Shown: positions 8,695 to 32,349 of the stretch, in pieces
Layout: every line of letters begins with the position of its first letter
Numbering within the stretch: position 1 is the first letter of the stretch
Source: a virus
Direction: 5' to 3' (one strand)
Length of the DNA: 64,000 nucleotides
IMG/VR virus record: IMGVR_UViG_3300009181_000072
Span: 1-64,000 of that record
Program-made: the position numbers and the translations under genes
Notes under the pieces: model-generated
The model's database searches: none
The model's input: only the letters and a program-made list of their open reading frames with translations
Told to the model about the DNA's origin: nothing

Positions 8695-9984
8695 ATGACC
8701 AAACAACTTGCATCAAACACTTTCTGCGCTGTACCCTGGGTTGGTATGGCTACTAAACCAAATGGCACAGCCAGAGTCTGCTGCTTAATGTACAGCCACG
8801 AAAATCAAGGGATAGTGTCAGACGATGATAACAATCCTTACAACTTTAGAGATGCTGACTTTGATCAGGTACGCAACGGCGATACATTTAGAGAAATCAG
8901 ATTGGCATTGCTAAATGGTGTAAAACATCCATTGTGCAACACTTGCTGGATAAAAGAAGACGCCGGATCTAACAGTCGCCGCCTGCAAACCAACCGTATC
9001 TATAAAGATGAGTTTACACTCGATGCCGCTAAACAACATACAGATATCAACGGTCGAACTGATTGGCAACCCAGTTACTGGGATCTGAGATTTGGAAATC
9101 TCTGTAATCTAAAATGTGTGATGTGCCACCCAAGTAGTAGCAGCCAATGGTATGATGACTATGTCATGTTATACAACGCTGAACAGTACACTGATGGCGG
9201 CGCTGTTATCAAACTGACAAAAAAAGCTAACGGAAAATATGATGCAGGCGGTGCATATGATTGGTGGAAATCTGAACAGTTTTGGAAAACTTTAGAGACT
9301 AAGATACCGTATATGAAGCAGATTTATTTGGTCGGCGGCGAACCAATGCTCATAGAACCTCATTACGAGTTCTTACAGAAGATAATAGATGCCGGTCGTG
9401 CAGCCGATATAGTGTTAGAATACGATACTAACATGACTGCTTTACATGTTCGATCATTTGATCTATGGAAGCATTTTAAAACTATTATACTTAGGACTAG
9501 TTTAGAAGACCATAGTATCCAGAACGATTATATACGGTATCCGTCCAAATGGCATGCTATTGAGAAAAATCTAGACACTATAAGATCTTGGAACGTGTCT
9601 AACATACAATGTTCTAGTTCGACAACCTGGCAGATACTGAACAGTTTCACAATTACCAATCTGCTGGATTATTTTGACAAGACAGATACAGAATATCACG
9701 TGCGTATACTTAATTCGCCGCACTGGTATGATGTCAAGATATTGCCAACACAGCTAAAAGCTTTGCTTATTGAGAAATATACCGCGTGGGCAGGTAGTAA
9801 CGACAAACGGCAAAAGAAAATAGCAGTGCTAATAAGCTACTTAAACTCGCATATGGAAACGTATGACGAATCAGCACTTAAACGTTTTATTGCCCTGACA
9901 GATAGACTAGACAAATCTAGAAACACCAACTGGAAAACAGTATTTCCAGAACTGTATGCTGGCTTAAAATATCTATACGACTGA
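8695..9984 (+). CDS. Radical SAM protein with N-terminal twitch domain (island copy 1)
   Basis: A 429-residue predicted radical SAM enzyme. The N-terminal domain (residues about 9-100) carries FCAVPW, then CC and CNTCW, the pattern of the N-terminal twitch type (a shortened SPASM fold with an auxiliary Fe-S site). The radical SAM core has CNLKCVMC (Cys137, 141, 144) for the 4Fe-4S cluster and the SAM-binding GGEP (VGGEPML). The family generates a 5-deoxyadenosyl radical, often to modify peptides or sugars, but the substrate here is unknown. First gene of the plus-strand island run. It has no classical ribosome site. A CTAAAATA word lies 7 nt upstream, resembling a late promoter with one extra A. 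Confidence 0.85.
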   Translation: MTKQLASNTFCAVPWVGMATKPNGTARVCCLMYSHENQGIVSDDDNNPYNFRDADFDQVRNGDTFREIRLALLNGVKHPLCNTCWIKEDAGSNSRRLQTNRIYKDEFTLDAAKQHTDINGRTDWQPSYWDLRFGNLCNLKCVMCHPSSSSQWYDDYVMLYNAEQYTDGGAVIKLTKKANGKYDAGGAYDWWKSEQFWKTLETKIPYMKQIYLVGGEPMLIEPHYEFLQKIIDAGRAADIVLEYDTNMTALHVRSFDLWKHFKTIILRTSLEDHSIQNDYIRYPSKWHAIEKNLDTIRSWNVSNIQCSSSTTWQILNSFTITNLLDYFDKTDTEYHVRILNSPHWYDVKILPTQLKALLIEKYTAWAGSNDKRQKKIAVLISYLNSHMETYDESALKRFIALTDRLDKSRNTNWKTVFPELYAGLKYLYD

Positions 9985-10016
9985 TAATATTATTGTTTGT
10001 AGAGTGAGGAAATTAA

Positions 10017-11267
10017 ATGGATACGGTTAACAAGTCGTCACTAGATAGCAATTCTAAAGTTGTAAATTGGCTGCTCGGTAATAATTTTTGTGCGATGCCG
10101 TTTGTGCATGCTGCTATAGAATCAAATGGTGATGTTAGAGCATGCTGCATGGCAGATCAATTAGAAGATAACGACGGCAATAGATTGAACATTAATGACC
10201 TATCGTTAACAGATGTATTAGAACATCCGGTATACGTTAAATTCAGAGAATCATTTACTAATAACCAGCAACATCCGTCGTGTGCTGCTTGTTGGAAATC
10301 TAATGATATATTTTCACCTAGGATAAAATTTAGTGCTGTACCGGCGTTGGATAATTACATGCAAAGTGTAATGTCTGGTGGTAAATTAGATTCCAATCTG
10401 TTAAAATTAGAAGTGAAAGCTGGTAATAGATGCAATCTAAAATGTAGGATATGCGGTCTGATAAACAGTTCTCAATGGTTAAAAGAAACTTACGATTATA
10501 ATGTACAGCATGGTATTACTGTGTTACCTTTTAAAGAAAGTGACGAATATAAATATAATCAACAATGTAAATGGATAGACTCTGACAAGTTTTGGACAGA
10601 CACCCAAAGCTTAAACGATATTCGTGTTGTACACATGATGGGCGGTGAGCCGATGATGATACCAGAACACAAGATATTATTACAGAAACTGCTAGAGTTA
10701 AAACATTTTAGTGAGATACAAGTATGGTACAATACTAATGCTACCTATGTACCAGATCAAGAGCTTGTTGATATACTCAGCCAATTTAAACAAGTATCAA
10801 TGTCGTTAAGTATCGACGACATCGGTGAACGATTTGAATATCAACGCAAGAATGGTAGCTGGGATACAGTAAACACTGTTCTAGATTTCTTTGAAACTAA
10901 AAAAGATGTATGGCACGTTGGTATCGATCCGGCAATTAGTATTTTTAATATCATGTATCTAGATGATCTTGTAGAATATTTCACGAGTCGAGGATTTGGT
11001 GTATTTGATAATCATTTTGTTGATAGTTTGTGGAGCATACGAGCTATTTCTACAGATGCAAAACAAGAGATAATGCAACATTACCAATCTGCTAAACATA
11101 AAGATCATCACACTATAAAAACTGCATTAGAATATATGCAAACTAACGAGCATACAGACGTTACTGCATCTAATCGCAATGAACGAATTCAATTTTTTGA
11201 TAAAACTAGGAATGAGTCGTTCGCTACGACATTTCCAGCGATGGCAAGGATTATGAACTATGAATAA
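10017..11267 (+). CDS. Radical SAM protein with N-terminal twitch domain (island copy 2)
   Basis: A 416-residue paralogue of copy 1. The N-terminal domain has FCAMPF, ACC and CAACW. The radical SAM core has CNLKCRIC (Cys139, 143, 146), followed by SSQWLKE, and MGGEPMM for SAM binding. Compared with the other copies the Cys set is complete. The start at 10017 has an AGGA ribosome site (GTGAGGAAATTAA). The stop overlaps the next start by 8 nt, so translation is probably coupled. Base composition is AT-richer than in copies 5 and 9, which may point to different origins. Function unknown beyond the enzyme class. Confidence 0.85.
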   Translation: MDTVNKSSLDSNSKVVNWLLGNNFCAMPFVHAAIESNGDVRACCMADQLEDNDGNRLNINDLSLTDVLEHPVYVKFRESFTNNQQHPSCAACWKSNDIFSPRIKFSAVPALDNYMQSVMSGGKLDSNLLKLEVKAGNRCNLKCRICGLINSSQWLKETYDYNVQHGITVLPFKESDEYKYNQQCKWIDSDKFWTDTQSLNDIRVVHMMGGEPMMIPEHKILLQKLLELKHFSEIQVWYNTNATYVPDQELVDILSQFKQVSMSLSIDDIGERFEYQRKNGSWDTVNTVLDFFETKKDVWHVGIDPAISIFNIMYLDDLVEYFTSRGFGVFDNHFVDSLWSIRAISTDAKQEIMQHYQSAKHKDHHTIKTALEYMQTNEHTDVTASNRNERIQFFDKTRNESFATTFPAMARIMNYE

Positions 11268-12936
11268 TAAAAAACTTAGCCCGACTATATGCATGATGCC
11301 ATTTGCTAGCATTAATATCCATGCTACTGGCAAAATCGTTAGGTGCCAGATGAGCGAAGATGAAATGGGTGATGTTGTAAACGGGTCAATAGTAAAGCAG
11401 TGGGAAAATGAAGCATTCCAAGAGTTGCGACAAGATCAGATAGACGGCAATTGGAATCGAGGCTGTACAAATTGTCTGCGTAAAGAATCTGATGGTATCA
11501 AGAGCAAGCGATTGCACTGGCAATCTTTAGCTGTTGCTAAGGAATTTTGGGATACAAAAGATTTCAAATCTAGTATAGTTAAAAATGACATATTACATAT
11601 GGATATAGCGTTCAATAACTTATGTAATTTCAAATGTAGGATGTGTTCGTCTGCATACTCAAATGCTTGGATCTCAGATGAGAAAAAGCTCAAAGATGCA
11701 GGCTTAGCTGGCGGAAGTAGCGGAAGTCAGCTACCGAAACTTGCTACTACATACAATCGAGAAAAAAATCAGGTAACAACTGAGCAGTTGACGGAATTGT
11801 TAGATAATGCGCCTAACTTGCAACGTGTTGAGATACTAGGCGGCGAACCGTTCCTTGTGCCAGAATTTATGACATTTTTAGATGAGATGCGCAGTCGCGG
11901 TATCCATAAAAATGTAGAATTGATGGTCACCACAAATGGTAGTCTGATAACAGAAGAAAAGCTAGACAAACTATTGGGTTTTAAATACGTAAATATTAAT
12001 TTTAGTTTAGATGCAACAGGGGACCTATTCTCATACATGCGATCTGCTGGATTATTTACGTTTGAACAAATAGATAAACAACTTGATCTAGTTTTAGCAT
12101 GGACTAAGAAAGCAACTGCTACCGGATATGGTATATACAAGGTTAACATAAATGGTGCTTATCAGATCTATAATATGTTAAATATCAAAGATTTCATCGA
12201 ATACATCATAATGAAATTTAACTGGTATGAAACACCCCCTATTGAAAATAGTAAGTATCGGCATAGTTTCGAACATCGCATAGTTCTCAATGATACACTT
12301 TCTGCAAAAAGTGCACCTATTAATCTCAAGTTAGAAAGCAATACACAGATAGATTGGTTGATATCTAAATATCCGTTTTTATTAGACATATCTGAAAAAA
12401 GCTACATATTAGATATCAAGAAGACCTGTAATCAATACCATGATTCAAAAGATACTGATAGTATTCAGTTTGTTAAATTTACTAGAGAACTAGATAACAT
12501 ACGCGGTGTATCAATTGATGATGTGGCGCCGGACGTCATTAAACATTTTTTGCATATAACCGACGATGATTGGCTTTCATATCATCTAGAGTTACAGTCT
12601 CGTCCAACAATCACAGCAGGCTCGTCTGCTATTCCGCATTTCAAAAACTGGCGAACGCTGTATATAAGAAATCTATATCGTGCACTGCACGAGAACAACG
12701 TGTTTACACTACTCTCAATTGAATACGATAAAGATATGCCATACGATGATGCATATTATGTTAGCAAGATATTAGAAGTTCGTTACTCTATATCAATGAT
12801 AAGCAAAGATGACAACAACGATATCCGCCATACTATAAAAACACTGTTTGATAGTGAATTTTATCGTATGTATTATATGATACCAGACAAGTTACAAGCA
12901 CTAGCAGACATGCTGGGTAAGAAAATACTAGAATGA
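11260..12936 (+). CDS. Long radical SAM protein with variant twitch domain and C-terminal extension (island copy 3)
   Basis: At 558 residues this is the longest member of the family here. The core is complete: CNFKCRMC (Cys122, 126, 129) and GGEPFLVPE. The N-terminal domain has ICMMPF and CTNC. Where the other copies have a CC pair it has a single Cys (VRCQMSE), so the auxiliary cluster may have an altered ligand set. About 120 extra residues at the C-terminus (after about residue 440) have no counterpart in the paralogues and no recognised fold. They may bind a substrate or partner. It overlaps copy 2 by 8 nt and copy 4 by 4 nt. Confidence 0.82.
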   Translation: MNNKKLSPTICMMPFASINIHATGKIVRCQMSEDEMGDVVNGSIVKQWENEAFQELRQDQIDGNWNRGCTNCLRKESDGIKSKRLHWQSLAVAKEFWDTKDFKSSIVKNDILHMDIAFNNLCNFKCRMCSSAYSNAWISDEKKLKDAGLAGGSSGSQLPKLATTYNREKNQVTTEQLTELLDNAPNLQRVEILGGEPFLVPEFMTFLDEMRSRGIHKNVELMVTTNGSLITEEKLDKLLGFKYVNINFSLDATGDLFSYMRSAGLFTFEQIDKQLDLVLAWTKKATATGYGIYKVNINGAYQIYNMLNIKDFIEYIIMKFNWYETPPIENSKYRHSFEHRIVLNDTLSAKSAPINLKLESNTQIDWLISKYPFLLDISEKSYILDIKKTCNQYHDSKDTDSIQFVKFTRELDNIRGVSIDDVAPDVIKHFLHITDDDWLSYHLELQSRPTITAGSSAIPHFKNWRTLYIRNLYRALHENNVFTLLSIEYDKDMPYDDAYYVSKILEVRYSISMISKDDNNDIRHTIKTLFDSEFYRMYYMIPDKLQALADMLGKKILE

Positions 12937-14093
12937 ATAAAAACAATTTTTGTCATATGCCGTGGCATGGTATCGCTATAGCTGCCAATGGCAATGTAAA
13001 ACCGTGCTGTCAATATTCGCATGGTGTAGATCAAGTTGGTTCCGATACTGATATTACAGCTGCCTATAATAATGATCAAATGAAGCGTATCAGGTCTCAA
13101 TTCTTGCAGGGTGAATCGCCTAGCGGTTGCAATAGCTGTTGGCAGCGCGAACAGCAGATAGGTACAAGCCGGCGTATATGGTTTGATGAAAAGTTTGGTC
13201 GATACATACCAACTGGCTACAAATATACTGAAAACGTTACCGATCCAGTATGGATTCAAGCAGACATAAACTTCTCAAACGTCTGTAATCTCAAGTGCAG
13301 GATGTGTGGCAGTTGGGCTAGCAACCAATGGTTTGACGAAGAACTGCGTTTGGCAAATATTGATTCTAAGTTTATGAAAAACAAGAATCCGGTGCCGCTA
13401 ATACAGCACGATCTTGCACAATTACAGAGCATGCTGCCGCACATACAACACATGCGTCGCATTGATTTTAAAGGCGGAGAACCGATGCTTGCAAAATATC
13501 ATAATCAGTTTTTGGATTGGCTTATAGATAAAGGCCACAACAAATCTATCACTCTGCAATATACTACAAATGGCACAGTTATCAATCCGGGTATAGTAGA
13601 TAGACTGTCTAGATTTGAGAATGTTAGGATAATGTTCAGCGTAGAAGGTACTGGATCGCTATATCAGTATATCAGAGGCGGCGCTCATAGTTTAGACGAA
13701 GTTGTCAATAACATATTCAAATATGATCAACTAGATAACGTGTTGATAGGATTCAATGTCACGATACAAGCATACAACATATTAAATCTACGAGAGTTGC
13801 ACACGTTCTTACATGCGTTGCCACTTAAACACGGTAGTGCAATCGGTGCATTTACTACCATATGTAACAACCCAGATTATCTCAGTCCGTTTGTTGTACC
13901 AGACGACTTGCGAGATCTAGCAGTTGATAGGTTAGACGGTATTACAGAGTTACACCATTTATCGAATCAATTACAGAAGCGTGTGTGGGATGCAAGTAAG
14001 TGGCAAACATTTGTAGAATATACTCAACATCTCGACAAGTGGCGCAACGAACGCATCGTAGATCATGCTGCAGAATTTGCCAAGTTCTTCTAA
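12933..14093 (+). CDS. Radical SAM protein with N-terminal twitch domain (island copy 4)
   Basis: A 386-residue enzyme with FCHMPW, PCC and CNSCW in the N-terminal domain, CNLKCRMC (Cys118, 122, 125), SNQWFDEE and KGGEPMLAK in the core. It begins within an ATGA overlap with copy 3, which suggests translational coupling. It ends 105 nt before the next gene, the largest gap in the plus-strand run. That gap contains only a 10-codon open frame. All cofactor residues are present. Substrate unknown. Confidence 0.85.
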   Translation: MNKNNFCHMPWHGIAIAANGNVKPCCQYSHGVDQVGSDTDITAAYNNDQMKRIRSQFLQGESPSGCNSCWQREQQIGTSRRIWFDEKFGRYIPTGYKYTENVTDPVWIQADINFSNVCNLKCRMCGSWASNQWFDEELRLANIDSKFMKNKNPVPLIQHDLAQLQSMLPHIQHMRRIDFKGGEPMLAKYHNQFLDWLIDKGHNKSITLQYTTNGTVINPGIVDRLSRFENVRIMFSVEGTGSLYQYIRGGAHSLDEVVNNIFKYDQLDNVLIGFNVTIQAYNILNLRELHTFLHALPLKHGSAIGAFTTICNNPDYLSPFVVPDDLRDLAVDRLDGITELHHLSNQLQKRVWDASKWQTFVEYTQHLDKWRNERIVDHAAEFAKFF

Positions 14094-14198: not shown

Positions 14199-15590
14199 GT
14201 GAGATACTTTGAGAAACTACAGGATCGCAGATTAGGTATCGGCTGGTTAGATATATTTGATCGTGTCAACGACGATTTCATAAAATCTGTAACACAAAAT
14301 CTAACCAGTTACTGGGTAGGAGAATCGTCTGTTTTTTGGCAGATACCAAACTCTTATGGTCCTAGCGTAGATGTGCTATTAAACGATGCAGCTGACACTG
14401 ATTTAAAGTGGCTGATAATCTGTGCACCCGGCCTGACATTTGTCAGAGATGGTAACTTTTTCCAAATACTATCAACTATGATAGACGGCTTGTCTAATAC
14501 TGCACTAATGGGACATGTGCTGGATACGGGCGATCAGTATTATCAATTGCACCATCAAACCTTGCTTGTAAATCTAGATTGGTATAGAACACATAACAGA
14601 CCAGAATTTGGTAAAACAGACGACCTTGCATGGGAAACAATAGAACCTCTCCGTAGCGAAGAAAGTTTCCACGACGGATATACACCAATCTGGGTGAAAA
14701 ACGGCAACACATCTCGGAATTATACCGGAAAAAAACCAGGATGGAATTTGATTAAATCTGCACTTGAATCTGGATACGATGTTAAACCATTTAACAAAGA
14801 CCTTAGATTAAGCAAGTACTATTATTACCCAGATGTTGAAGGCGACTGGCCTACTAAGTTAGGTCCAATGAGTTACGATTTGCAGACAACTGTTCACTTC
14901 GTTTCAAATACAGAATCAGTCATTTATGTTCCCGACGAACACGTTGGAACTTTTGACATATGCATGTTCCCAGCAGGAGGTATTAATGCAATTCTAATAC
15001 CCTGGATGCTGCGCATGAAAACAAATACTACTGTTATGATAAACGATATCAGTCCATTGGCGCTGGACATGGCAGGTAAATTAGTTGCAAATTATCGAGG
15101 CGGATCGCTAAACGAATTCTTAAACAACAGCTACATATGGCCTAGAGATTCTCAATTTTTTAGAGGATTTTACCGTGCATCTGATCTGAACGAAATATCT
15201 GCAATGCAAGAAATAATTGATGCAGAAATGAAAAACGGTCTTGGAGAATGGATAGATACGGTTATGCCAACCTTAACCTACCATTTCAATTGTGCAAATG
15301 TATTTGATGAAAATGACTGGTGGGCATTTTCGCAAGGGGTGCATAGCAAACGCAAAGTGTACGTGAACCTGAGTAATATATGGCATTATTTGCCAACAAC
15401 AATGATTTTCAGCTTGAAGAATCGCATGAAGATGCATGATAAAATGATGACTAGATTATCTCAATTAGATGCAGATATACAGCTGCACTATGTACACCCG
15501 ACGTTAAAAAATATGATGTATGTTGCACCAATTGATGCACTGGCTGTACCTATCAATCATAAATTTAAGGTGTTACCATGGAACAACTAA
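14199..15590 (+). CDS. Unknown transferase-like protein, possibly two-domain
   Basis: A 463-residue protein read from a GTG with a GATGGGG site 11 nt upstream. The first half has LKWLIICAPGLTF and MGHVLDTGDQYYQLHHQ, then LVNLDWYR, reminiscent of a GT-A glycosyltransferase-like acceptor region. The second half has FDICMFPAGGINAILIPW followed about 20 residues later by VMINDISPLALDMA, which resembles a Rossmann, SAM-methyltransferase-like nucleotide site. I do not recognise the family, so both are suggestions. It is not a radical SAM protein, although embedded in that run. It overlaps the 2-oxoglutarate oxygenase gene by 13 nt, linking the two. Confidence 0.6.
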   Translation: MRYFEKLQDRRLGIGWLDIFDRVNDDFIKSVTQNLTSYWVGESSVFWQIPNSYGPSVDVLLNDAADTDLKWLIICAPGLTFVRDGNFFQILSTMIDGLSNTALMGHVLDTGDQYYQLHHQTLLVNLDWYRTHNRPEFGKTDDLAWETIEPLRSEESFHDGYTPIWVKNGNTSRNYTGKKPGWNLIKSALESGYDVKPFNKDLRLSKYYYYPDVEGDWPTKLGPMSYDLQTTVHFVSNTESVIYVPDEHVGTFDICMFPAGGINAILIPWMLRMKTNTTVMINDISPLALDMAGKLVANYRGGSLNEFLNNSYIWPRDSQFFRGFYRASDLNEISAMQEIIDAEMKNGLGEWIDTVMPTLTYHFNCANVFDENDWWAFSQGVHSKRKVYVNLSNIWHYLPTTMIFSLKNRMKMHDKMMTRLSQLDADIQLHYVHPTLKNMMYVAPIDALAVPINHKFKVLPWNN

Positions 15591-16324
15591 TGCCATTTGT
15601 AGATCGCTGTATGGAATTTACGCATTATCAATGCTTAAATTCTAGACCTGATAAATTCAAAGAATGGCGCAATGATAATGCATTGAAAGTAGAGTATTGC
15701 CAGTGGGTGATGCATCATAGTAACTGTCCGAGCTTAAAGTTAGATATCCCTGTACCGCACGAAGGAATGCTGCGCGAAGTTCTGGCACAATCGCATAAAT
15801 TTGTAAAGCATCGCGGCGAAGAAAATCCTGGTTGGTACAGCATGGCTATACACGGACAAGACGTGCACCTCACTCAGCCAAAGGAGTATTATGTAAACGT
15901 TGAAAAGTTGTTTACGACAGATGATTTGCCAGACTATAAATGGACCGAACTAGCTGATCACTGCCCGGTTACCAAGGCATGGTTACAAGATCAATGGCCG
16001 TTCAAGAAGTTTCAACGAGTACGCTTCATGCTGCTAGAACCTGGCGGGTATATTACTCCGCATTTTGACTACGACAAGCGCAGCATGGCAGCATTTAATC
16101 TTGCCATAAGCAATCCACCAGGTGTTGAATTCGCTATGGAGGATGCAGGGCTTATACCTTGGCAACCAGGCGAAGTGCGGGCTATTGACATAGGTAGGCA
16201 TCATGCAGTGCGGCACACTGGCACAGAGCCTCGCATCCATATGATCATACACGGTCTATGGGGCGACGGATTTGAAGAGATGATATGCCGTAGCTTTGAC
16301 CAACTGTTGGAAACTCTTAAATGA
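15578..16324 (+). CDS. Aspartyl/asparaginyl beta-hydroxylase-like 2-oxoglutarate oxygenase (island oxygenase 1)
   Basis: A 248-residue predicted Fe(II)/2-oxoglutarate dioxygenase. The metal triad is visible: H162-x-D164 in PHFDYD and a distal His (H209 or H213) in RHHAVRHTG. The 2-oxoglutarate-binding Arg is probably R219 in EPRIHMIIHG. Known relatives hydroxylate Asp or Asn in proteins, but small-molecule substrates are also possible. Its LNLAISNPPG segment parallels IPIITNPG in the two other oxygenases of the island, so the three appear paralogous. It overlaps its neighbours on both sides (13 nt and an ATGA), so it is expressed with the radical SAM enzymes. Confidence 0.82.
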   Translation: MEQLMPFVDRCMEFTHYQCLNSRPDKFKEWRNDNALKVEYCQWVMHHSNCPSLKLDIPVPHEGMLREVLAQSHKFVKHRGEENPGWYSMAIHGQDVHLTQPKEYYVNVEKLFTTDDLPDYKWTELADHCPVTKAWLQDQWPFKKFQRVRFMLLEPGGYITPHFDYDKRSMAAFNLAISNPPGVEFAMEDAGLIPWQPGEVRAIDIGRHHAVRHTGTEPRIHMIIHGLWGDGFEEMICRSFDQLLETLK

Positions 16325-17484
16325 GTAACACGTTTTGTGTGTTACCTTGGATGCATTTAGCAACCAACGCAAGCGGGCAGCTTCGTGTGTGTTGTAACAG
16401 CACGCCTGGTAAGAATCTGATATTGCGCGACGACGGCACCGCATATCGTGTTAACGATAAAGACATCGAGCATGCGTGGGAAAGCAAGACCCTGCGCGAT
16501 CTACGAACTCAAATGTTGAACGGTACTAAAGCTGAAATATGCGAACGTTGCTGGCGAGAAGAAGATGCTGGCATTAGATCTGCACGGCAAGGGTGGAATC
16601 AAGCTTGGACTGTTGACAATCCTACAGTTGATTCTCCAATGCAAGTCAAATATGTAGATTTAAGATTGGGTAACTTGTGCAACTTGAAATGCCGCATGTG
16701 CAATCCATATGCTAGCAATCAATGGGTTGACGAGTGGGGATTAATTGCTGATGCGTTAAGCACTGATGAGCATGCTAGATTAAGTAGCATGGACTGGCCA
16801 AATGATCCGCAAGTCTGGAATAATCTTGCATTGTTTAGCAACACGATAGAAGAGATATACCTCACTGGCGGCGAACCGACGTTAGCCAAGGCACAATATG
16901 ACCTTTTTGACCGTTTGATTGAATTGGATGTTGCCAAAAAGATAACATTAAAATATAACACTAATCTAACAAACATACCACAGCGTATGATTGATTATTG
17001 GGAACACTTTAAACGCATAAAGATAAATGCTAGCATTGATGCATTTGGAGATCTCAATCGTTACATTCGTTATCCGGCAAACTGGAAAAGCATTGATAAA
17101 AATCTGCGCATCTTTTTAGAAATGCGATCTAGAAATAAGTGTACCTTGTCAGTGCACTGTACTGTGCAGATTTATAACATACTGCAGCTGCCAGAACTGA
17201 TAGATTACGTTGATAGCCTCGGTGATATACAGATATATTTTAACATACTGAATCATCCAGACTGTCTTAATATACGAGTGTTACCACTTGCACTCAAACA
17301 GCTCGTGTCAGATAGGCTACAAAAATACACACATAAACCTAAAGTTGATGGCATCATTAGTTATATGATGAGCGACGACTGGAACAATAAGTGGGATGAG
17401 TTTGTAAAGTATACCAAAGCTCTTGATTCAAGCCGCAGTGAAAACATAAGCACCTTGGTGCGAGAATTCAATGAGCTATACTGA
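16321..17484 (+). CDS. Radical SAM protein with N-terminal twitch domain (island copy 5)
   Basis: A 387-residue enzyme and the clearest family member. It has FCVLPWMH, RVCC and CERCWREEDAG in the N-terminal domain, CNLKCRMC (Cys120, 124, 127), SNQWVDEW, then LTGGEPTLAK. It starts in an ATGA overlap with the oxygenase gene and ends overlapping the next gene by 14 nt. This tight packing with a 2-oxoglutarate oxygenase is the best sign that the two enzyme classes act in the same pathway. Confidence 0.87.
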   Translation: MSNTFCVLPWMHLATNASGQLRVCCNSTPGKNLILRDDGTAYRVNDKDIEHAWESKTLRDLRTQMLNGTKAEICERCWREEDAGIRSARQGWNQAWTVDNPTVDSPMQVKYVDLRLGNLCNLKCRMCNPYASNQWVDEWGLIADALSTDEHARLSSMDWPNDPQVWNNLALFSNTIEEIYLTGGEPTLAKAQYDLFDRLIELDVAKKITLKYNTNLTNIPQRMIDYWEHFKRIKINASIDAFGDLNRYIRYPANWKSIDKNLRIFLEMRSRNKCTLSVHCTVQIYNILQLPELIDYVDSLGDIQIYFNILNHPDCLNIRVLPLALKQLVSDRLQKYTHKPKVDGIISYMMSDDWNNKWDEFVKYTKALDSSRSENISTLVREFNELY

Positions 17485-23703: not shown

Positions 23704-23931
23704 ATGGAAATGACACAGTCAACTCAATATGGTAGATTTATAACTCTGCCAAGTAGTGGCAGCAATGACGAGCATTGCTTAGCAATCAATGATTTTCGAT
23801 TCTATAATGAAAGTCTAAGTGAGATTTTATCTTGGTACGCAGATCATAAAATTGAACATGTAAAGCAAGGGGTATTATTGAAATTTGTGAATGCCTCAGA
23901 CAGGGCATTGTTTAGTCTTACTTGGAATTAA
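23704..23931 (+). CDS. Small protein of unknown function
   Basis: A 75-residue acidic-to-neutral protein (MEMTQSTQYGRF at the start) with no leader-core pattern, no Cys repeats and no membrane segment. It lies between the last plus-strand radical SAM gene and the acetyltransferase-like gene, 60 nt after the former. A weak TAGGAT site precedes the ATG. As one of the few small proteins in the island it could be an accessory or carrier protein, but nothing shows that. A spurious frame cannot be excluded. Confidence 0.45.
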   Translation: MEMTQSTQYGRFITLPSSGSNDEHCLAINDFRFYNESLSEILSWYADHKIEHVKQGVLLKFVNASDRALFSLTWN

Positions 23932-24584: not shown

Positions 24585-25396
24585 ACAGCTGGCAGTTTTA
24601 TAAGCTTTAGTCGATCAAACAACAGCGCTACCCATCTGCCACTGTCGAATTCCCACCAACTGCCGCCTATATCATACCGCCACCCACCCTGTCGATGATG
24701 ATGGTTGTTGTGCAATCCAGTGTGTCCCAACGTTCCCCAGTTGAGAAATATGTTGTTAACGCTGTTGTCGCCTGATTCAAATGGGCGTTCGCTTAGTGGG
24801 AAATTGACATGCTCTAGGTAGTTGGTAACCATGTAGGTGTAATAGTTATAGACTGCAGGCCAAGCACACACGATCATGAATAATTTTGGACTGATTGCAA
24901 ACGTCGCAATGTAAAGTGCAAATACTAGATCAAAATAATGCTTGTGTAACCATACATGTATCTTTTCTTTTAAGAAATCTTTGGTATAGAATATGGTTTT
25001 ATCAAACTTAGTATAGTCGTAATCTAGACTCAACATCTGCAACAAGCTTAAATGTATTGGACTATGCGGATCGTTAGCAGTATCAGATGTGCTATGGTGC
25101 AAACGGTGTAGTGCTGCCCATGCCAACGGACTCCCTACTCCTGCAGGTATAGTGCATATCACGGTTAATATCTCAAATAGCTTGCTAGCTTTGAATGCTC
25201 TGTGGCTATAGTACCTGTGGTATCCTAGATCCATGAAGATCGAAAGAACAAGTGCTGCTGTAACAGCTAATGCATAGTCTGACAAGTCGAAGATAAAGAA
25301 CGAGCCTATCAATCCTATATGTGACAACAAGGTAGCTATTCTAACGAACCAGATATCCGTCTTAATATTAAACTTTTTCTTAAGCCATCGTATCAT
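24581..25396 (-). CDS. Membrane fatty-acid desaturase (acyl-lipid/acyl-CoA delta-9 type), island desaturase 1
   Basis: A 271-residue membrane diiron enzyme. Three histidine boxes are present: HRYYSH (residues 60-65), HRLHH (97-101) and HNNHHH (about 233). Hydrophobic segments lie at about 20-55, 75-90 and 150-190, as in delta-9 desaturases. It would introduce a double bond into acyl chains in the host membrane, using O2 and an electron donor. It is the last gene of the minus-strand operon, after a small unknown gene with an ATGA overlap. Phage-encoded desaturases are unusual cargo. Confidence 0.88.
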   Translation of the reverse strand: MIRWLKKKFNIKTDIWFVRIATLLSHIGLIGSFFIFDLSDYALAVTAALVLSIFMDLGYHRYYSHRAFKASKLFEILTVICTIPAGVGSPLAWAALHRLHHSTSDTANDPHSPIHLSLLQMLSLDYDYTKFDKTIFYTKDFLKEKIHVWLHKHYFDLVFALYIATFAISPKLFMIVCAWPAVYNYYTYMVTNYLEHVNFPLSERPFESGDNSVNNIFLNWGTLGHTGLHNNHHHRQGGWRYDIGGSWWEFDSGRWVALLFDRLKLIKLPAV

Positions 25397-25728
25397 CGTT
25401 TATCCTTTGCACTTGTCCATAATTGATCAAATTCCCTGGCAAGCTCGGGTGACACCCGCCAGTAAAAATCTTCAAACTGCTTCCATGATTTTACTGCCTT
25501 AACATGTAATTGGTATAATTTTTTATCAAACACACTAAGTTCTTTCCTTGGTATTGGCAGCAGATCAGCATCGCAAGGTATTTTGATACTGTCAGCTGAT
25601 AATATCATGTACTTATAATGTGCATAGTACCAGGGTATATCCATAGCACCATTTAGCATTTGACAGTATTGAATGTTATTTGTGCTGGTATATACATTGC
25701 TAAATTCAGTGCCTACTACGTATATCAT
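25393..25728 (-). CDS. Small protein of unknown function within island operon
   Basis: 111 residues with no recognised domain. Tyr/Trp-rich segments (WYYAHYKYMIL, EDFYWRV) suggest a folded protein rather than a peptide precursor. It overlaps both neighbours by 4 nt (the radical SAM gene upstream and the desaturase downstream), so it is probably made together with them and could be a partner of one of them. Confidence 0.6.
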   Translation of the reverse strand: MIYVVGTEFSNVYTSTNNIQYCQMLNGAMDIPWYYAHYKYMILSADSIKIPCDADLLPIPRKELSVFDKKLYQLHVKAVKSWKQFEDFYWRVSPELAREFDQLWTSAKDKR

Positions 25729-27311
25729 GACAGGAGTTTGGCCATATATGTTGTGCGTAGCAATTTCTTTCTTTTTTGTGATTCGTTAACATGATTAATA
25801 TCAGTATTATACATATTTTTGATCTCGTGATGTTTGAATCCTAGATTCTTCATGCGATTGTAATCTTGGAAATATGTTAGGCTAAATTTCTGTGGGCATG
25901 CAGGATTGTCGTGAAACTCTTTTACCAGTGCCCTTGCTTCGTCGCTGGTCATAATTTGACTCTGCCAAGAACTATTACCTAACTTGGCATAACCATATTC
26001 ATCTGGATTAGCGCTAATCTTACTCATATGCTTCCAGGTTAATCCTTGTTTATTCTCAGAAAAGCCAGACTCTAATGCAGTAGCCTTTTGTTCTTTTGGA
26101 AATTTAATGTTTGGTGATCCTTCTAGAAAATACGGATACACACCTACGGCTGATAGCGGGTTAGCGTCACTGTATAGATATTCAAAAGTATCGTATATGC
26201 TCTCTTTGGTTTCATATGGCAAACCTACTATAAATCCAGCACTCATATAAACATCATCGCCCCAGAGCTTACGAAGCTTTTGCAATGTTTGTTTTAAACT
26301 GTCGGGGTCTGCCCCTTTACCTATATGCTTACCACTTAGCCTATTAAATGTTTCGATACCAAAATTTACAGAAGTTAACCCCATCTCTTTTAGTTTGATT
26401 GCCATATCAAAATGCGTATCTATGATGTCTAGTCTACAGTATGCGCTAAATGTGATTTTAAATGGCAAACTGGTTATGGTAGTGTGTAGATGATCTATCT
26501 TTTCCTGACTGTCATTGAGCGTGTCGTCGGCTATCATGTAGTCAGTTATACCAAATGTTTCGTAGTTGTATATAAATTCTTCGCGCAGGGTTTCGCTGCA
26601 CTTGTTATAATCTCCAAATTTCTTGCCATTGAGATTAAAGCTACAGAAAGAACATTTAAAGATGCACCCTCTAGCTGTTTCTATTGGTATGCTTTCATTT
26701 GAAAATAGAAAGTCTCGATCAGTCCATGTTATTTTACTACTGCTAAATTCTGCAAACGGATACATGGTGTCTGTTAATAGCACTGCATGATTTGTGTGCA
26801 AAAATTTGATATCAGCCCCATATTTGAGATGATTTGCTAAAGCTATAATGCTACCTTCGCCTTGGCCCAATATCCAGTAATCTATGTTTGGTATCTTATG
26901 ATTGCTTTTTGTAGCTTTGTACCCACCTACTACTATCTTACAACGGTTGCTACGTTTGCGTATAGTGTTGAAAAAGTGTTCTACAAATGTTGCATCCTGC
27001 GGGAACAAATCTGTCCAGCTGCTGTTCATGATCTGCATGAGACTGGTATTTTGTTCTAATAACGAAACGTATTCGGCATCTGAGTAATATTTGGATAATA
27101 GTGTGCTAGCTATACCGACTATTATGGTGGTATCATCTAGATATCTATCCAATATCTGATCTAGTTCTTCCTTAGTCAAACTAGCAAAAAACTCTACAAC
27201 TTGCACATCGTAACCATGTGATCGCAATTCGGATGCGATGCGATATGGCCCGCTATACCTACCAAATCCTATCAAACCGTTTATATCGTTGAATATTATT
27301 ATTTCAGCCAT
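25725..27311 (-). CDS. Class B-like radical SAM protein with N-terminal cobalamin-binding-like domain (island copy 11)
   Basis: A 528-residue enzyme. The N-terminal 170 residues form a Rossmann-like domain (SGPYRIASELRSHGYDV, IVGIAST, KIVVGGYKAT, YWILGQGE) of the type that binds cobalamin in class B radical SAM enzymes. The DxHxxG ligand motif is absent, so cobalamin may bind base-off without His or not at all. The core has CIFKCSFC (Cys216, 220, 223), then DDTLNDSQEK and NFGIETFN. Its closest relative is copy 13. It overlaps copy 12 by 8 nt. Confidence 0.83.
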   Translation of the reverse strand: MAEIIIFNDINGLIGFGRYSGPYRIASELRSHGYDVQVVEFFASLTKEELDQILDRYLDDTTIIVGIASTLLSKYYSDAEYVSLLEQNTSLMQIMNSSWTDLFPQDATFVEHFFNTIRKRSNRCKIVVGGYKATKSNHKIPNIDYWILGQGEGSIIALANHLKYGADIKFLHTNHAVLLTDTMYPFAEFSSSKITWTDRDFLFSNESIPIETARGCIFKCSFCSFNLNGKKFGDYNKCSETLREEFIYNYETFGITDYMIADDTLNDSQEKIDHLHTTITSLPFKITFSAYCRLDIIDTHFDMAIKLKEMGLTSVNFGIETFNRLSGKHIGKGADPDSLKQTLQKLRKLWGDDVYMSAGFIVGLPYETKESIYDTFEYLYSDANPLSAVGVYPYFLEGSPNIKFPKEQKATALESGFSENKQGLTWKHMSKISANPDEYGYAKLGNSSWQSQIMTSDEARALVKEFHDNPACPQKFSLTYFQDYNRMKNLGFKHHEIKNMYNTDINHVNESQKRKKLLRTTYMAKLLS

Positions 27312-28458
27312 GGACTGATTTCTCTAAGTGATTGTATAATGTTTTCAATTCTGGTACACTGACCGAGACATCCTGACCTCGTAGTTTATCAAGCCGCTCT
27401 GTGAATCTAAACCATTTTTCTAAAAGTGCAGCATCTTCTCGACCGGTGTGTGCTGCTTCTGCAGTTGGCACGTGTGTTATTAGTTGTTTCTCATAATCTG
27501 GCAATATGTGAATCTTGAGATGCGCTGGATTATACAGAACTTTGTCGTCGTATGTCGGAACGAATCCCAACGATTTTTCGCATTCGGTTTTCAACTTATG
27601 ATTATCAAATGCATTGTAAATCATGATGGTATTACTGATAAAGAACTGCGTCACGTTGTCTAATTTTAAGAAGCTCTTTGTGTTTTCTAGAATTTTTGGT
27701 ACTGGAGTTTCGTTGCCTCTGATATATTGATTCAATCCGTTGCTGGCATCAATGCTAACACCTAACAATATATCATTAAACTGAGAAATTAGATCTAAAA
27801 AATCTGCATCTAATATAGTACCATTGGTGGTTAGATCTAAGCTAACTTTGGATTTATCTTTGATGTTAGACAACAGATACATAGTTTCATCTGCATAGCA
27901 TGGTTCTCCGCCGCGCAAGCTGATGCAAGTGTGTTCGTCTTTGTTATTGATAATATCCAGCAGTTGGTCTAATTGTTCAATGTTAAGATGGTTATAACGT
28001 ACAACTTTCTTTTCAAGCTCAGCTGAATATCCGAATATGCTCTTGATTTCCTGGTCGTGATACTCTGGTATCCATGCTGTGCTCCATTTTGGTTTGCACA
28101 TGCGACATTTGCTGTTGCACTTGTTGCTGATATATAACTCGATATAGTTAGTGCGGTGGAATAATCTATCCCCGGCTTGTTCTGCAGTTAGTTGTGACGA
28201 CAGCTGCAGGTTTTTCTTTTGTCGCCAGCTAGACAACGATTGACTTTCGTTTTTCCAGCACACATTGCAGGCTGCAGGTCGTTCTCCTGCTAACATTGAA
28301 TCTTTAAGATCTTGTAGCTCTGCGCTAGCTAAGTAATTTTTTATGTCTGATTGTCTAACACTATCAACCAAGCAGCACACCTGTACATCGCCCCACGGTT
28401 GCAGCACTATCCCTTGCCACGGTAGTGCACACCACGACTGCGATACTGCATCAGGCAT
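27304..28458 (-). CDS. Radical SAM protein with N-terminal twitch domain (island copy 12)
   Basis: A 384-residue enzyme, the only twitch-type copy on the minus strand. The N-terminal domain has WCALPWQG, VCC and CNVCW. The core has CNSKCRMC (Cys114, 118, 121), STAWIPE and LRGGEPCYAD. It sits between a desaturase gene (8-nt overlap upstream) and copy 11 (8-nt overlap downstream). This directly ties radical SAM chemistry to the lipid-type enzymes of the operon. All Cys ligands are intact. Confidence 0.85.
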   Translation of the reverse strand: MPDAVSQSWCALPWQGIVLQPWGDVQVCCLVDSVRQSDIKNYLASAELQDLKDSMLAGERPAACNVCWKNESQSLSSWRQKKNLQLSSQLTAEQAGDRLFHRTNYIELYISNKCNSKCRMCKPKWSTAWIPEYHDQEIKSIFGYSAELEKKVVRYNHLNIEQLDQLLDIINNKDEHTCISLRGGEPCYADETMYLLSNIKDKSKVSLDLTTNGTILDADFLDLISQFNDILLGVSIDASNGLNQYIRGNETPVPKILENTKSFLKLDNVTQFFISNTIMIYNAFDNHKLKTECEKSLGFVPTYDDKVLYNPAHLKIHILPDYEKQLITHVPTAEAAHTGREDAALLEKWFRFTERLDKLRGQDVSVSVPELKTLYNHLEKSVHG

Positions 28459-29248
28459 TGATAGTAACCAACCTCATAGTACGTAGTAATCTTATTACTA
28501 TTGCTATGATGTCTATCTCAAACCAGCGGTGCTGGAAATTGTAACTATATGGTTTTTCGTGGTGATTGTTATGCCAGCCTTCTCCAAACGTGAATATAGC
28601 AAAGAGTGGCAGATTCTTGCTATTCTCGTTGGTATCAAAATTACGATAACCTATTATCTTAGGCACATGCATTGACGTATGTGCCAGTGCATTTACTATG
28701 CTAGATCCGTGCCATTGCCACATTGCGGGTATCCAGTGTAATACTAACACCCACATCGGGCCAAGGCAAACGGCTAGCAATACGCTCCATACTATGTTAA
28801 TAGTCCAGTAATTTTTATGGAAAAACAGCACATCTTTGTCGCGCAATAGGTCTAAGCCGAACCTTTTGACATTTGGGGTATGCATCATGCTAAGGAAATA
28901 ACTGCCCCAGAACCCAATGTTTTTGGGGCTGTGTGGATCTTTATCGGTGTCGCTGTGTGCGTGGTGCTCCCGGTGCATGGCCACCCAAGCCAAGCTAGAT
29001 CCTTGTAAGGCAACTGTGCTGAGAAATAAACATGCTAATTTAAGTATCCTGCTGCGGAAATCTATAGACCGATGTGATAGATACCTATGATTAAGCATGC
29101 TGATGCCAAACGTCATAGTAAGAAAATATACACCAAAGCTAGCTAACCATTCCCATCCGCTAGCATATATGGCCATTGGTACAATGGCTGCATGCACCAG
29201 GAGTTGTCCTGCTACTATCTTATATTTCTCAAGTTTTGTATTGACCAT
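28451..29248 (-). CDS. Membrane fatty-acid desaturase, island desaturase 2
   Basis: A 265-residue paralogue of desaturase 1 with boxes HRYLSH (54-59), HREHH (92-96) and a final HNNHHE (about 228), and the DKDPHSPKN segment typical of acyl-CoA/acyl-lipid delta-9 enzymes. Several hydrophobic helices place it in the membrane. The two desaturases differ in most other residues, so they probably act on different positions or substrates, rather than being a recent duplicate. Its stop and start overlap both neighbours. Confidence 0.88.
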   Translation of the reverse strand: MVNTKLEKYKIVAGQLLVHAAIVPMAIYASGWEWLASFGVYFLTMTFGISMLNHRYLSHRSIDFRSRILKLACLFLSTVALQGSSLAWVAMHREHHAHSDTDKDPHSPKNIGFWGSYFLSMMHTPNVKRFGLDLLRDKDVLFFHKNYWTINIVWSVLLAVCLGPMWVLVLHWIPAMWQWHGSSIVNALAHTSMHVPKIIGYRNFDTNENSKNLPLFAIFTFGEGWHNNHHEKPYSYNFQHRWFEIDIIAIVIRLLRTMRLVTINA

Positions 29249-30162
29249 TAATCTAATCTCGCTTGTCCGCTCTTTTCGAGATATATCTCGTTGAGCGTTT
29301 CTTTGGTTATATTAGTATAGCGCTGATCGTTGCCAGAACACGGATGCTGTTCAAAATCAGCATCGCTTACAAATCTTACTGGGTCGTGCGGTTGTATCTC
29401 TTCAAGATCTTCTTGGCTTTCTAGACATACTCTGATCTGATATCGTATCTCATCGCCGCGGTTGATAGCATAATGTTCTATCCCTGCATTGATAAAAAAT
29501 ATACCACCATCGGCTGGTAAATGATATTCGTTCCACCCGCCTGCTGTCTTGACCCCTATCACTGACCCTGGGTTGGTTATTATGGGTATCTGTAGTCGGG
29601 TGATGTATTCAGCACCGATATCAAAATGTTTGGTTATGAATCGACCTGGGTACAGCGATACCACAGCTGCGCGACAACTGTTGCTTTGGAATGATCCTAA
29701 GAATTCGTTGATATAACCGGCATTATAAACAGTTGGTTTGGTATAGTTGCGCTCGTCGTAGAACGGGTGATAATATTCACTAGATGTATCTACCATACCT
29801 TTAAGTCGCTGTACTGGTGTAAAGTCGCTGACCTTTTTAGTCATGATGTTACCCAGTGTTTTAGCTTCGTCGGTTAGTTCGTGGAATCCAATCACACTGT
29901 ATCGCTTGTATACTTCATCATAATTTTTGATGAAATCGTTGCCTTGTTTATTTTTGAGATCATATGTGTGCTCTGTACTGCTTGGGTCCATCTCAAGCAA
30001 CCCTTGACTAATTTTCTCTTCGTTTTCTGCGATGAGATGCATGATTTGAGTTCTTGCGCTGTCAAGATCAATGGTCTTGCGTAATCGACCTATTGGTGGC
30101 AAGCTGTGCTTGTTTTTCCTCGTCTTGATAATGTCTCGGTAATTCATGCCTATTTGATGCAT
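29248..30162 (-). CDS. Asp/Asn-hydroxylase-like 2-oxoglutarate oxygenase (island oxygenase 2)
   Basis: A 304-residue predicted Fe(II)/2-oxoglutarate dioxygenase with a long N-terminal helical part. Metal ligands are H179-x-D181 (TKHFDIG) and H230 (GIEHYAIN). R240 (DEIRYQIRV) would bind 2-oxoglutarate. The IPIITNPG segment is shared with oxygenase 3. It is the first gene of the minus-strand operon that runs down to 24581. A TGGAGG ribosome site precedes its ATG, and a late-promoter-like TTTAAATA lies 54 nt upstream. Confidence 0.78.
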   Translation of the reverse strand: MHQIGMNYRDIIKTRKNKHSLPPIGRLRKTIDLDSARTQIMHLIAENEEKISQGLLEMDPSSTEHTYDLKNKQGNDFIKNYDEVYKRYSVIGFHELTDEAKTLGNIMTKKVSDFTPVQRLKGMVDTSSEYYHPFYDERNYTKPTVYNAGYINEFLGSFQSNSCRAAVVSLYPGRFITKHFDIGAEYITRLQIPIITNPGSVIGVKTAGGWNEYHLPADGGIFFINAGIEHYAINRGDEIRYQIRVCLESQEDLEEIQPHDPVRFVSDADFEQHPCSGNDQRYTNITKETLNEIYLEKSGQARLD

Positions 30163-30240: not shown

Positions 30241-31671
30241 TCAATTGGTTAGGTTATCTCTTACATATCTAGTTATAAAGTTTTGTCGTTTGACACGTAG
30301 TTCGTCTGATTCGTATATACGATTGGTCTGTAACATCACATGATCAATGTCAAACCCCATGCTACAAATATCCCCCAAATGAAATCCGCCAACTGGTAAA
30401 TCTGACCAGTATTTGTTCATAACATCGTAAGTAAGTTGTTTAACTGTTGCTCTGGTTAACGACCCGTTGGTCCAATTGATACGATTTTTACCTTTAAATT
30501 CATATCCATATTTCTTATACTGCTTGTCAAATTCGCTATGATAAGCTTTGATGTTCTCTTCTGGATTTATGTGTAACGTGTTAAAGGCCCACGAATGCAT
30601 GTCATTTTCTATTAACCATTGAACATCTGCTTCTAACTCATTGGGTGTCCATCCGGGTAACCCAGTTATCATCAGCAATTCCCAACTGACAGTGGCTTTC
30701 CATTCTTGTCGTTGTTTCAGCAACCATTCTTTAGCATGATGGCCGCTCCAGCCTTTTCCTATTATCTTGCTGCTGTCTTTGTTAAATGACTCTATACCAA
30801 AATCAGTGCTTCGCATCCCGCTATCTTTAAGCCAATTTGCTGTATGCGGTCGAGCCCATATCAGATCAGCTCGACAAAAACCTATCCATTGTATCTGGAA
30901 AGGCAGTCCCTGTGCTAACTCGAGCAACATCTGAACTTTCTCCTCGCTTTCGTTAACAGTATCATCGGTATACCAATAGCGAGTAGTTCCGTACCGTTCG
31001 TAGTTATCTAGTACTTCATGCCTAAGATCTTGATAACTACGCAGATATGTGCCGGGTTTTTTGCCTATCATTGGAAAGCTGCAGTATTTGCATTTAAATA
31101 TGCAGCCGCGTCCGAGTTCGAGTTGTAGAAATTCCTCTGGTCTAATAAAATCACTGTCTTGATAAGTTTTTCTAGTGTCTTTTATATTAAAATCTGGTCG
31201 CAGGCATCTAATGCCTTTCTGCTCATCCATCCATTTTAATATTGAATCTTCGGCATACTTGTGAAAGACTATCCACGGTAACTTGAAATCGTTCATACTA
31301 TTGGCACCGCCCAACAGCCAGTTTACATGTTTATATTTTGCCTCTATATTTCCGCGTACCTGTATTAACCAGCAGGGCTCTGACGCTCCAAAACTTATAT
31401 CGGCAGTATCGTCGTGCTCTAATTCAATATTATTATACGAATCCTCGTTGGTATCCCAAAACGTAGTACTAACACCTACAGCTAGGGTACCGCTATCAAT
31501 ATTTTTTTCTATTATTGATTGTATGTCTGCTGGATCTAGATCATAGCAAAAATCTATTATCTTTGTTGTGTAACCAAACCGTCTAAGCCATGCTGCTAGT
31601 TGATATACACCACCTGATCTAATCACAACATTGTACTGTTTAGATCCAGTGAGAAATATAATATCTGTCAT
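30241..31671 (-). CDS. Class B-like radical SAM protein with N-terminal cobalamin-binding-like domain (island copy 13)
   Basis: A 476-residue paralogue of copy 11. Its N-terminal Rossmann-like domain runs to about residue 150 (SGGVYQLAAWLRRFGY, LAVGVSTT, WLLGGAN) and again lacks DxHxxG. The core has CIFKCKYC (Cys190, 194, 197), followed by TDDTVNESEEK and DFGIESFN, the same order as in copy 11. It stands as a separate transcription unit, with a late-promoter-like element 25 nt upstream and about 80 nt before the next operon. Substrate unknown. Confidence 0.83.
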   Translation of the reverse strand: MTDIIFLTGSKQYNVVIRSGGVYQLAAWLRRFGYTTKIIDFCYDLDPADIQSIIEKNIDSGTLAVGVSTTFWDTNEDSYNNIELEHDDTADISFGASEPCWLIQVRGNIEAKYKHVNWLLGGANSMNDFKLPWIVFHKYAEDSILKWMDEQKGIRCLRPDFNIKDTRKTYQDSDFIRPEEFLQLELGRGCIFKCKYCSFPMIGKKPGTYLRSYQDLRHEVLDNYERYGTTRYWYTDDTVNESEEKVQMLLELAQGLPFQIQWIGFCRADLIWARPHTANWLKDSGMRSTDFGIESFNKDSSKIIGKGWSGHHAKEWLLKQRQEWKATVSWELLMITGLPGWTPNELEADVQWLIENDMHSWAFNTLHINPEENIKAYHSEFDKQYKKYGYEFKGKNRINWTNGSLTRATVKQLTYDVMNKYWSDLPVGGFHLGDICSMGFDIDHVMLQTNRIYESDELRVKRQNFITRYVRDNLTN

Positions 31672-31695
31672 AAAATTCTGATCCCTGCATATCGT

Positions 31696-31703
31696 TATTT
31701 AAA
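31696..31703 (-). promoter_or_regulatory. Late-promoter-like element ahead of island copy 13
   Basis: TTTAAATA on the minus strand, 24 nt ahead of the start at 31671. Confidence 0.45.
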
Positions 31704-31782
31704 TGCATACTGCAATAGATGATTGATATTGCAGTCAGACATCTGTTTGAATTGCAGCGTATTTTTTGATGTACTTTTGGTG

Positions 31783-32349
31783 TCAATCTAGCATGCATGC
31801 TACCAAATGAACTCTTGGTTCTAATCCAGCATTAAATGCAGTATGGTATAAGGTTGTGTTAGCGATATAGACAGATCCGTCTGCAGGTAAATGGGTAGCT
31901 TCATTTTCAATTACTAAATGTGCACCAGGATTAGTAATGATAGGTATGTGTAGACGCCGTTCGCTGTCAGTATGCCAACTGAGACACGATTTTGGACGAC
32001 TCATCATCAGTCGTACTCTGCCTAATCTATAATTAGATCGCAAGGTTTCTATGATCTCAAAAAATATCGTATCTTTAAATTCTTGTACTGTAAATGAGAA
32101 ATCAGATTCTTTTCGAACAATTTGGTGTTTTTTAAGATTTCCGTGGTTGTCAACTGCGTCGTTTCCCCACATATATTGTAAGCTACCTGTAGCATCATAC
32201 CATGCTTCTTTAGCATCGTTACCAAGGCTATGGGTTAAACCTATCTGTCGATGATCTGGGTGCCAGTGACATATCTGTAAGATTTGATCCATATCTGATA
32301 GCATTCTCGGTAGATCAAATCTGGTATCTAATTTCTCAACATGTATCAT
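31783..32349 (-). CDS. Asp/Asn-hydroxylase-like 2-oxoglutarate oxygenase (island oxygenase 3)
   Basis: A 188-residue compact member: H126-x-D128 (SWHTDSE) and H169 (LYHTAFN) as metal ligands, R179 (EPRVHLV) for 2-oxoglutarate. HIPIITNPGAHL and HLPADGSV are nearly the same words as in oxygenase 2, so the two are paralogues. It is the right-most gene of the island, divergent from gp19. A weak late-like GATAAATT lies about 69 nt upstream (32418-32425). Known relatives modify proteins or peptides, but the substrate is unknown. Confidence 0.8.
   Translation of the reverse strand: MIHVEKLDTRFDLPRMLSDMDQILQICHWHPDHRQIGLTHSLGNDAKEAWYDATGSLQYMWGNDAVDNHGNLKKHQIVRKESDFSFTVQEFKDTIFFEIIETLRSNYRLGRVRLMMSRPKSCLSWHTDSERRLHIPIITNPGAHLVIENEATHLPADGSVYIANTTLYHTAFNAGLEPRVHLVACMLD

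Follow-up and report, generated by a model that had tools for sequence, protein, structure and literature searches.

A 24-kb radical SAM enzyme island in a T4-like phage fragment: a possible phage-borne copy of a Bdellovibrionota surface-tailoring pathway

One of the closest described likenesses to the locus reported here, a 24-kb island of radical S-adenosylmethionine (rSAM) and other modifying enzymes in the IMG/VR phage record IMGVR_UViG_3300009181_000072, is a 183-kb T4-like environmental (marine) genome, TARA_ERS488813_N000010, which carries 12 rSAM genes (Nishimura 2017, PMC5332604). The two are likened by description, not by sequence, and the accessible part of that report treats the genes as context for Fe-S metabolism only, with no mention of an island, partner enzymes, a function or a bacterial counterpart. 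A Baltic survey counted 261 viral radical SAM genes listed as 'ahbD', whose function is unclear, and their relation to rSAM proteins of the twitch type is not established (PMC9301287). The record studied here is 65,915 bp long, and the window is the whole stretch that was analysed, its bases 1-64000. A reading of this DNA made earlier from its letters (the sequence-only reading) had held that no phage system with such a gene set was described. The open-access literature indeed yielded no description of rSAM arrays in phages or Bdellovibrio; the claim needs qualifying in that the 12-rSAM T4-like genome, as far as its accessible description goes, and an NCBI model of twitch rSAMs exist.

That model, NF033640 (NCBIfam N_Twi_rSAM, curated cut-off 170 bits), belongs to a family for which we know of no assigned reaction. 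All eight N-terminal-twitch proteins of the island exceed its cut-off (203-389 bits) over nearly their full length, but it is a single-protein model and does not cover arrays, partners or the split enzyme M2 described below. Clusters for ribosomally synthesized and post-translationally modified peptides (RiPPs), such as sactipeptides and proteusins, also combine several rSAMs with hydroxylases and methyltransferases, and their maturases SkfB and CteB are the nearest folds; the island differs in having neither a precursor nor a RiPP recognition element (RRE), in its N-terminal twitch and in its many more rSAMs. Surface polysaccharide/aminoglycoside-type tailoring clusters resemble the island in their rSAM, glycosyltransferase (GT)-like and short-chain dehydrogenase (SDR) enzymes, and relatives of the island also carry a pyridoxal phosphate (PLP) aminotransferase-like protein, a carbamoyltransferase and a UDP-sugar dehydrogenase, whereas the window lacks nucleotide-sugar synthesis, flippase and polymerase genes.

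The island holds genes for 13 rSAM proteins and about ten other modifying enzymes, and we read it, at a probability of about 0.42, as the phage's copy of a multi-enzyme pathway of Bdellovibrionota that tailors a surface glycoconjugate. That its genes form one coherent pathway is very probable. Nine to 12 of them recur together in large phages and on Bdellovibrionota chromosomes, which supports the multi-step modification system proposed earlier; the genes are not scattered with unrelated partners in relatives, and the sets travel together, partly in the same order. More broadly, and tentatively, large phages and Bdellovibrionota may share an undescribed class of biosynthetic island, marked by twitch rSAM arrays and a two-subunit split rSAM enzyme, that makes some highly modified compound during infection or predation, with phages as the vehicle.

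Exactly 13 Radical_SAM (PF04055) domains are present in the 65,915-bp record, each of them in an open frame within 9,091-31,119; 12 of them score above the curated cut-off, and the first protein lies slightly under it (27.4 vs 29.5 bits). The motif CX3CX2C, from which 13 rSAM proteins had been recognised, is found in 13 of 13, with 0.06 proteins expected by chance in shuffled window proteins. The copy coordinates given earlier are right within start-codon choice, but they mark gene ends or starts and not motif positions. By Pfam and NCBIfam the proteins fall into eight of the N-terminal-twitch type (Tw1-Tw8), three of a Cys-rich type (M1, M2N+M2C and M3), in which a C-terminal Cys-rich domain lies within or beside the protein, and two of the HpnJ/PhpK type (B1 and B2). 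The genes form operons, as had been claimed; there are two of these, convergent at about 24,581, and overlaps of 1-14 nt hold for most junctions, but gaps of 32, 105, 78 and 111 nt also occur.

M3 (22516..23643, plus strand) is the most conserved cassette rSAM, with 53-84% identity to 22 viral homologues. An M3 profile search of 84,980 species genomes gave 25 loci, and M3 is present in 17 of 291 Bdellovibrionota genomes. Twitch rSAMs occur in 94 of 291 Bdellovibrionota vs 3 of 398 Pseudomonadota genomes, their counts per genome being lower bounds in both groups because few candidates were scored; one of these three Pseudomonadota genomes (G061) is a metagenome-assembled genome (MAG) with a mis-binned phage contig. 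In the Bdellovibrionota genome G051, a 27-kb island lies in a 917-kb contig among ordinary chromosomal housekeeping genes and holds 10 reciprocal best matches, namely Tw1-Tw6, M2N, M2C, the 2-oxoglutarate hydroxylase OG1 and its neighbour U14199, while a second genome (G057) has nine from the same set. The order of the block Tw4-M2N-M2C is kept across cassettes. A third chromosome, G048, carries an island of about 48 kb with M3, Tw, B1, desaturase (two DES2) and OG2 homologues together with the accessory genes c0, c1, c2 and c5 introduced below; from the flanking sequence, we take it to sit between tuf and secE-nusG-rplK-rpoB.

In the M3 tree, the Bdellovibrionota copies fall into several separate lineages, and those from Gammaproteobacteria, Rickettsiales, Chloroflexi and Acidimicrobiaceae nest among viral sequences. 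These latter carriers were therefore rejected, and the MAG contigs that bear such labels (L166, L174, L183, L186 and L187) look like mis-binned phage contigs. The window belongs to a clade of 10 viral rows (100/100), whose grouping with copies that include Bacteriovoracaceae is modestly supported (90/77). The data fit either a Bdellovibrionota host for the phage or gene exchange by another route, and we make no host claim.

Among viruses, a twitch profile search of IMG/VR gave at least 555 confirmed relatives. Of 44 relative records tested, all contained rSAM domains (1 to 25 each), and 40 had a twitch rSAM above the cut-off. A 518-kb relative (L090) has a tail sheath gene product 68% identical to that of the window and 22 rSAM genes, and the cassette of a 172-kb phage holds reciprocal best matches of 12 island proteins. 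Constant features of the cassettes are M3, an SDR often beside it, and U14199 or a homologue beside OG1. Many viral cassettes add c1, a 75-aa protein, c0 (rSAM/SPASM), c2, c5 and c3 (PP-loop family); c1 is presumably methyltransferase-like, judging from its sequence pattern, c2 is in our own reading a GT-A-like family, and c5 is a PLP aminotransferase-like protein. No c1, c2, 75-aa protein or dedicated c0 orthologue was found in the window. Isolated phages (INPHARED) gave no match to M3, U14199, B1 or the c2 family, and Tw1 matched there at only 21% identity, in two Vibrio phages. A direct U14199 search of IMG/VR returned nothing, and the relatives of this protein came via the twitch search instead.

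The phage origin is borne out by the tail sheath, deoxynucleoside monophosphate (dNMP) kinase, tail tube, terminase and UvsX genes in the window, which flank the island along with a head-tail adaptor gene. The window is a fragment of a T4-like phage, in which the island separates the tail sheath gene from the tail tube gene. The terminase best matches those of jumbo phages (Sinorhizobium phage Phosso, 469 kb, 52%; the PA5oct group, about 287 kb, 50%), and thus the full genome from which the record comes is probably much larger. On the left, the island is bordered by a sheath-like protein of 1371 aa (4474..8589, plus strand; PF17482, E 6e-16; 600 IMG/VR relatives), which is unusually long and has its sheath domain at the C-terminus only. 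On the right stands a tail tube-like protein (32472..33065, plus strand) with a weak gp19 match, a gene that directly follows the sheath in many relatives. GC content drops from about 0.45-0.50 outside to 0.37-0.43 inside the island. A separate contig (L085), whose sheath is a 100% match, repeats the sheath-Tw1-Tw2-Tw3 junction, which counts against a chimaeric left border.

Across relatives with both genes in view, the sheath-tube gap is below 150 bp in 14 of 54 and otherwise ranges up to several kb of unrelated genes. The sheath-closest relatives have smaller gap cassettes with Tw, SDR, M3 and c5 genes (L110, 5.6 kb; L119, 6.5 kb; L121, 8.4 kb), and three others (L086, L108 and L154) show the same kind of small cassette, open-ended. 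The gap therefore looks like an insertion hotspot that was expanded in the lineage of the window. In relatives of 172 kb and 205 kb, the main cassette and the sheath gene are some 100 kb or more apart, so that the virion or tail-protein target suggested by the sequence-only reading is not supported; the adjacent tail protein was rejected as a general substrate, because in L005 and L024 a long distance separates the cassette from the sheath. A protein of about 100 aa that ends in GHA directly follows the sheath in L087, L088, L108, L110, L119, L154 and others, and is absent from that place in the window. The dNMP kinase next to the sheath could be taken as a sign of DNA hypermodification of the phage genome, as phage pathways in which PLP, rSAM and GT enzymes act on bases are known. 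This kinase, however, stays beside the sheath in island-free relatives, the bacterial copies are chromosomal and the rSAMs are far too many, which makes such a role barely credible.

The eight twitch proteins have N-terminal twitch cysteines and a CX3CX2C core, with one of the paired cysteines missing in Tw3. Seven are encoded on the plus strand: Tw1 (8695..9984; NF033640 366.6 bits; PF04055 and SPASM), Tw2 (10017..11267; 271.9 bits), Tw3 (11260..12936; 558 aa; 233.9 bits), Tw4 (12933..14093; 306.7 bits), Tw5 (16321..17484; 389.3 bits), Tw6 (19446..20687; 289.5 bits) and Tw7 (20692..21966; 355.6 bits). Tw8 (27304..28458; 203.5 bits) is on the minus strand. Long open frames of 850-1400 codons match rSAM queries in relatives (L082:305-4552, L194:11418-14075 and L005:2998), and those in L005 and L194 resemble fusions of two twitch rSAMs.

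Of the Cys-rich class, M1 (17471..18397, plus strand; PF04055, E 1.5e-10) has its C-terminal Cys-rich domain, recognised from its Cys pattern, in the same chain. The rSAM copy previously placed at 18394 is indeed an rSAM, but together with the gene at 19079 it makes up a single enzyme that is split in two: M2N (18394..19116, plus strand; PF04055, E 2e-16), the rSAM core half, and M2C (19118..19459, plus strand), the auxiliary-cluster half. The mechanical open reading frame of M2C begins at 19079, and its most likely start is the ATG at 19118, after the end of M2N at 19116. The Cys spacing in M2C, 20-22-5-2, compares with 20-23-5-2 in the C-terminus of M1. A sequencing frameshift was rejected, because the halves are separate genes in the phages L005, L013, L017 and L063 and in the Bdellovibrionota loci L191 and L194, and are parted by Tw2 in L024; judged by this gene arrangement, the division of the rSAM enzyme into M2N and M2C is genuine and the two-gene form is conserved. 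Weak matches of M1 and M3 to viperin profiles could suggest that anti-defence enzymes, or viperin-like ones that modify nucleotides, are loosely assembled in the island. This is highly improbable, as the best score of any island protein with the prokaryotic viperin model is 63.8 bits, far below the cut-off of 180, the same set is chromosomal in Bdellovibrionota and so varied a set of partner enzymes is more in keeping with biosynthesis.

Among the partners, U14199 (14199..15590, plus strand) has a predicted GT-A-like domain and a methyltransferase-like Rossmann domain (AlphaFold2 predicted local distance difference test (pLDDT) 79, predicted template modelling (pTM) score 0.80). Its model has weak Foldseek matches, in the GT-A domain to the collagen and dystroglycan glycosyltransferases LH3, LARGE1 and COLGALT1 and to the PBCV-1 capsid GT, and in the second domain to small-molecule methyltransferases such as NNMT. 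In several relatives it adjoins OG1 (15578..16324, plus strand; PF05118, E 5e-12), one of the three Fe(II)/2-oxoglutarate oxygenases that had been recognised earlier and are upheld here, together with OG3 (31783..32349, minus strand; PF05118, E 7e-9) and the hydroxylase-like OG2 (29248..30162, minus strand; HFD motif), which is slightly under the cut-off (E 5e-4; 20.3 vs 22.6 bits). The SDR (21963..22523, plus strand) has no Pfam match, but its family profile (A6) matches solved SDRs (E 2e-7) and the Ser, Tyr and Lys are conserved, so that this earlier assignment also holds. A putative GNAT-like protein (23946..24584, plus strand) is not sustained, with no family or PDB match.

The minus-strand operon contains B1 (25725..27311; HpnJ/PhpK/BchE type; PF04055, E 5e-15), B2 (30241..31671; PhpK/HpnJ type; PF04055, E 1e-12) and the two desaturases reported before. 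DES2 (28451..29248) is a fatty acid desaturase (PF00487, E 3e-15), and DES1 (24581..25396) is acyl desaturase-like, with a weak DesA-type match (46 bits) that stays below the full-family NCBIfam cut-off; both have three His boxes. U25393 (25393..25728, minus strand; 111 aa) had no match. Lipid chemistry is possible for this operon, given its desaturases and LpxO-type fold family. A wider reading, in which acyl chains of lipids or lipid A are tailored by the desaturases, LpxO-like PF05118 enzymes and HpnJ-like rSAMs so as to alter host envelope lipids, at least by this operon, is unlikely. The intact His boxes are in line with it, as are the best scores of B1 and B2 with HpnJ/PhpK/ladderane-type rSAMs and the joint occurrence of B1, OG and DES homologues in L002, where twitch rSAMs are missing, and in G048, which has two DES2. 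It leaves eight twitch rSAMs and U14199 unexplained, however, its acyl substrate is putative, and the B12 (cobalamin-binding) domain of the B-type rSAMs is uncertain (PF02310, 20.8 bits in B1 against a cut-off of 32.1; no match in B2).

Peptide or protein modification, in which the rSAMs and hydroxylases would act on a ribosomal peptide or on host or virion proteins in proteusin style (epimerisation, crosslinks, hydroxylation, methylation and glycosylation), is rather doubtful. The AlphaFold2 model of Tw5 (pLDDT 90.7) speaks for it, being nearest among solved folds to SkfB and CteB, followed by viperin, BlsE, ChlB, anSME, MoaA and SuiB; SkfB, CteB, ChlB and SuiB are RiPP maturases. The low global template modelling scores may reflect the N-terminal twitch of Tw5, as known twitch-type rSAM enzymes have a C-terminal one. 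Moreover, PF05118 hydroxylases beside a collagen-GT-like domain suggest hydroxylation and then glycosylation of a side chain, and conserved small proteins lie near some relatives, one of 75 aa in 24 loci and the 100-aa one after the sheath in 12. The former (HHNSQNWYKAVIxWYVxQYGDLPSKxGPGKDVKL), seen in L007, L006, L025 and about 20 other loci, stands mostly between a methyltransferase-like and an rSAM/SPASM gene. Both families are conserved end to end, unlike leader-core precursors, and are absent from the island of the window, and there is no general linkage to the sheath. A RiPP precursor was rejected after these families and the small open frames of the window, such as one of 75 aa (23704..23931, plus strand; no conserved relative found), were examined; no small frame is common to the window and the examined cassettes of its relatives, so that the co-varying precursor sought by the sequence-only reading did not appear. 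No island protein matched PqqD/RRE models of Pfam or NCBIfam, and the lipopeptide target proposed there, with neither precursor nor recognition domain, gains no support.

A glycoconjugate is ranked above peptide or protein, and these above lipid, because of the sugar-gene neighbours, the lack of a shared precursor and the lack of an RRE. The hints of a glycan are the GT2 family, by far the commonest among non-cassette neighbours of Bdellovibrionota rSAM genes (12 of 102 proteins), the sugar-enzyme genes in Bdellovibrionota islands and the GT-A-like domain of U14199. The G048 island includes a UDP-glucose/GDP-mannose dehydrogenase, a GT2 and a PMT-type transferase, and a carbamoyltransferase is found in G056. 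Several points weigh against a glycoconjugate. The GT2 count has no matched genomic background; among solved structures, the model of Tw5 is best matched by peptide maturases, with viperin, BlsE and MoaA scoring close; and the substrates of PF05118 enzymes are side chains of proteins or acyl chains of lipid A. The window itself has no nucleotide-sugar enzyme, flippase or polymerase, and its sole sugar feature is the GT-A-like fold of U14199, although the contig is a fragment and missing partners may thus lie elsewhere in the genome.

If the glycoconjugate reading is right, the tailoring island, which also has its counterparts in Bdellovibrionota chromosomes, would move between large phages by inserting at hotspots, the sheath-tube gap being one. 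The Tw paralogues might activate C-H bonds (for epimerisation, deoxygenation, coupling or similar), one after another or as alternatives, on a single scaffold, which OG1 would hydroxylate and U14199 would glycosylate or methylate, with the SDR-M3 pair as a constant step. The likeliest scaffold would be a glycan or glycoconjugate on the surface of the infected cell; its modification might alter a receptor, block superinfection or mask the envelope. The minus-strand operon, with its desaturases, B-type rSAMs, OG2 and OG3, would be a second module and may tailor the acyl part of the scaffold.

Elsewhere in the window, a chaperonin of the Cpn60/GroEL family is encoded at 47046-48671 (E 1e-79).

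With up to 25 rSAM enzymes per viral record, these phages make an extreme investment in costly iron-sulfur chemistry, which is common among them and not freakish. The uncharacterised enzyme pool, including eight divergent twitch rSAMs, a split rSAM pair and a GT/methyltransferase-like fusion, could yield new chemistry. In addition, the Bdellovibrionota link opens the pathway to study in a cellular setting and suggests gene exchange with a phylum of predatory bacteria.

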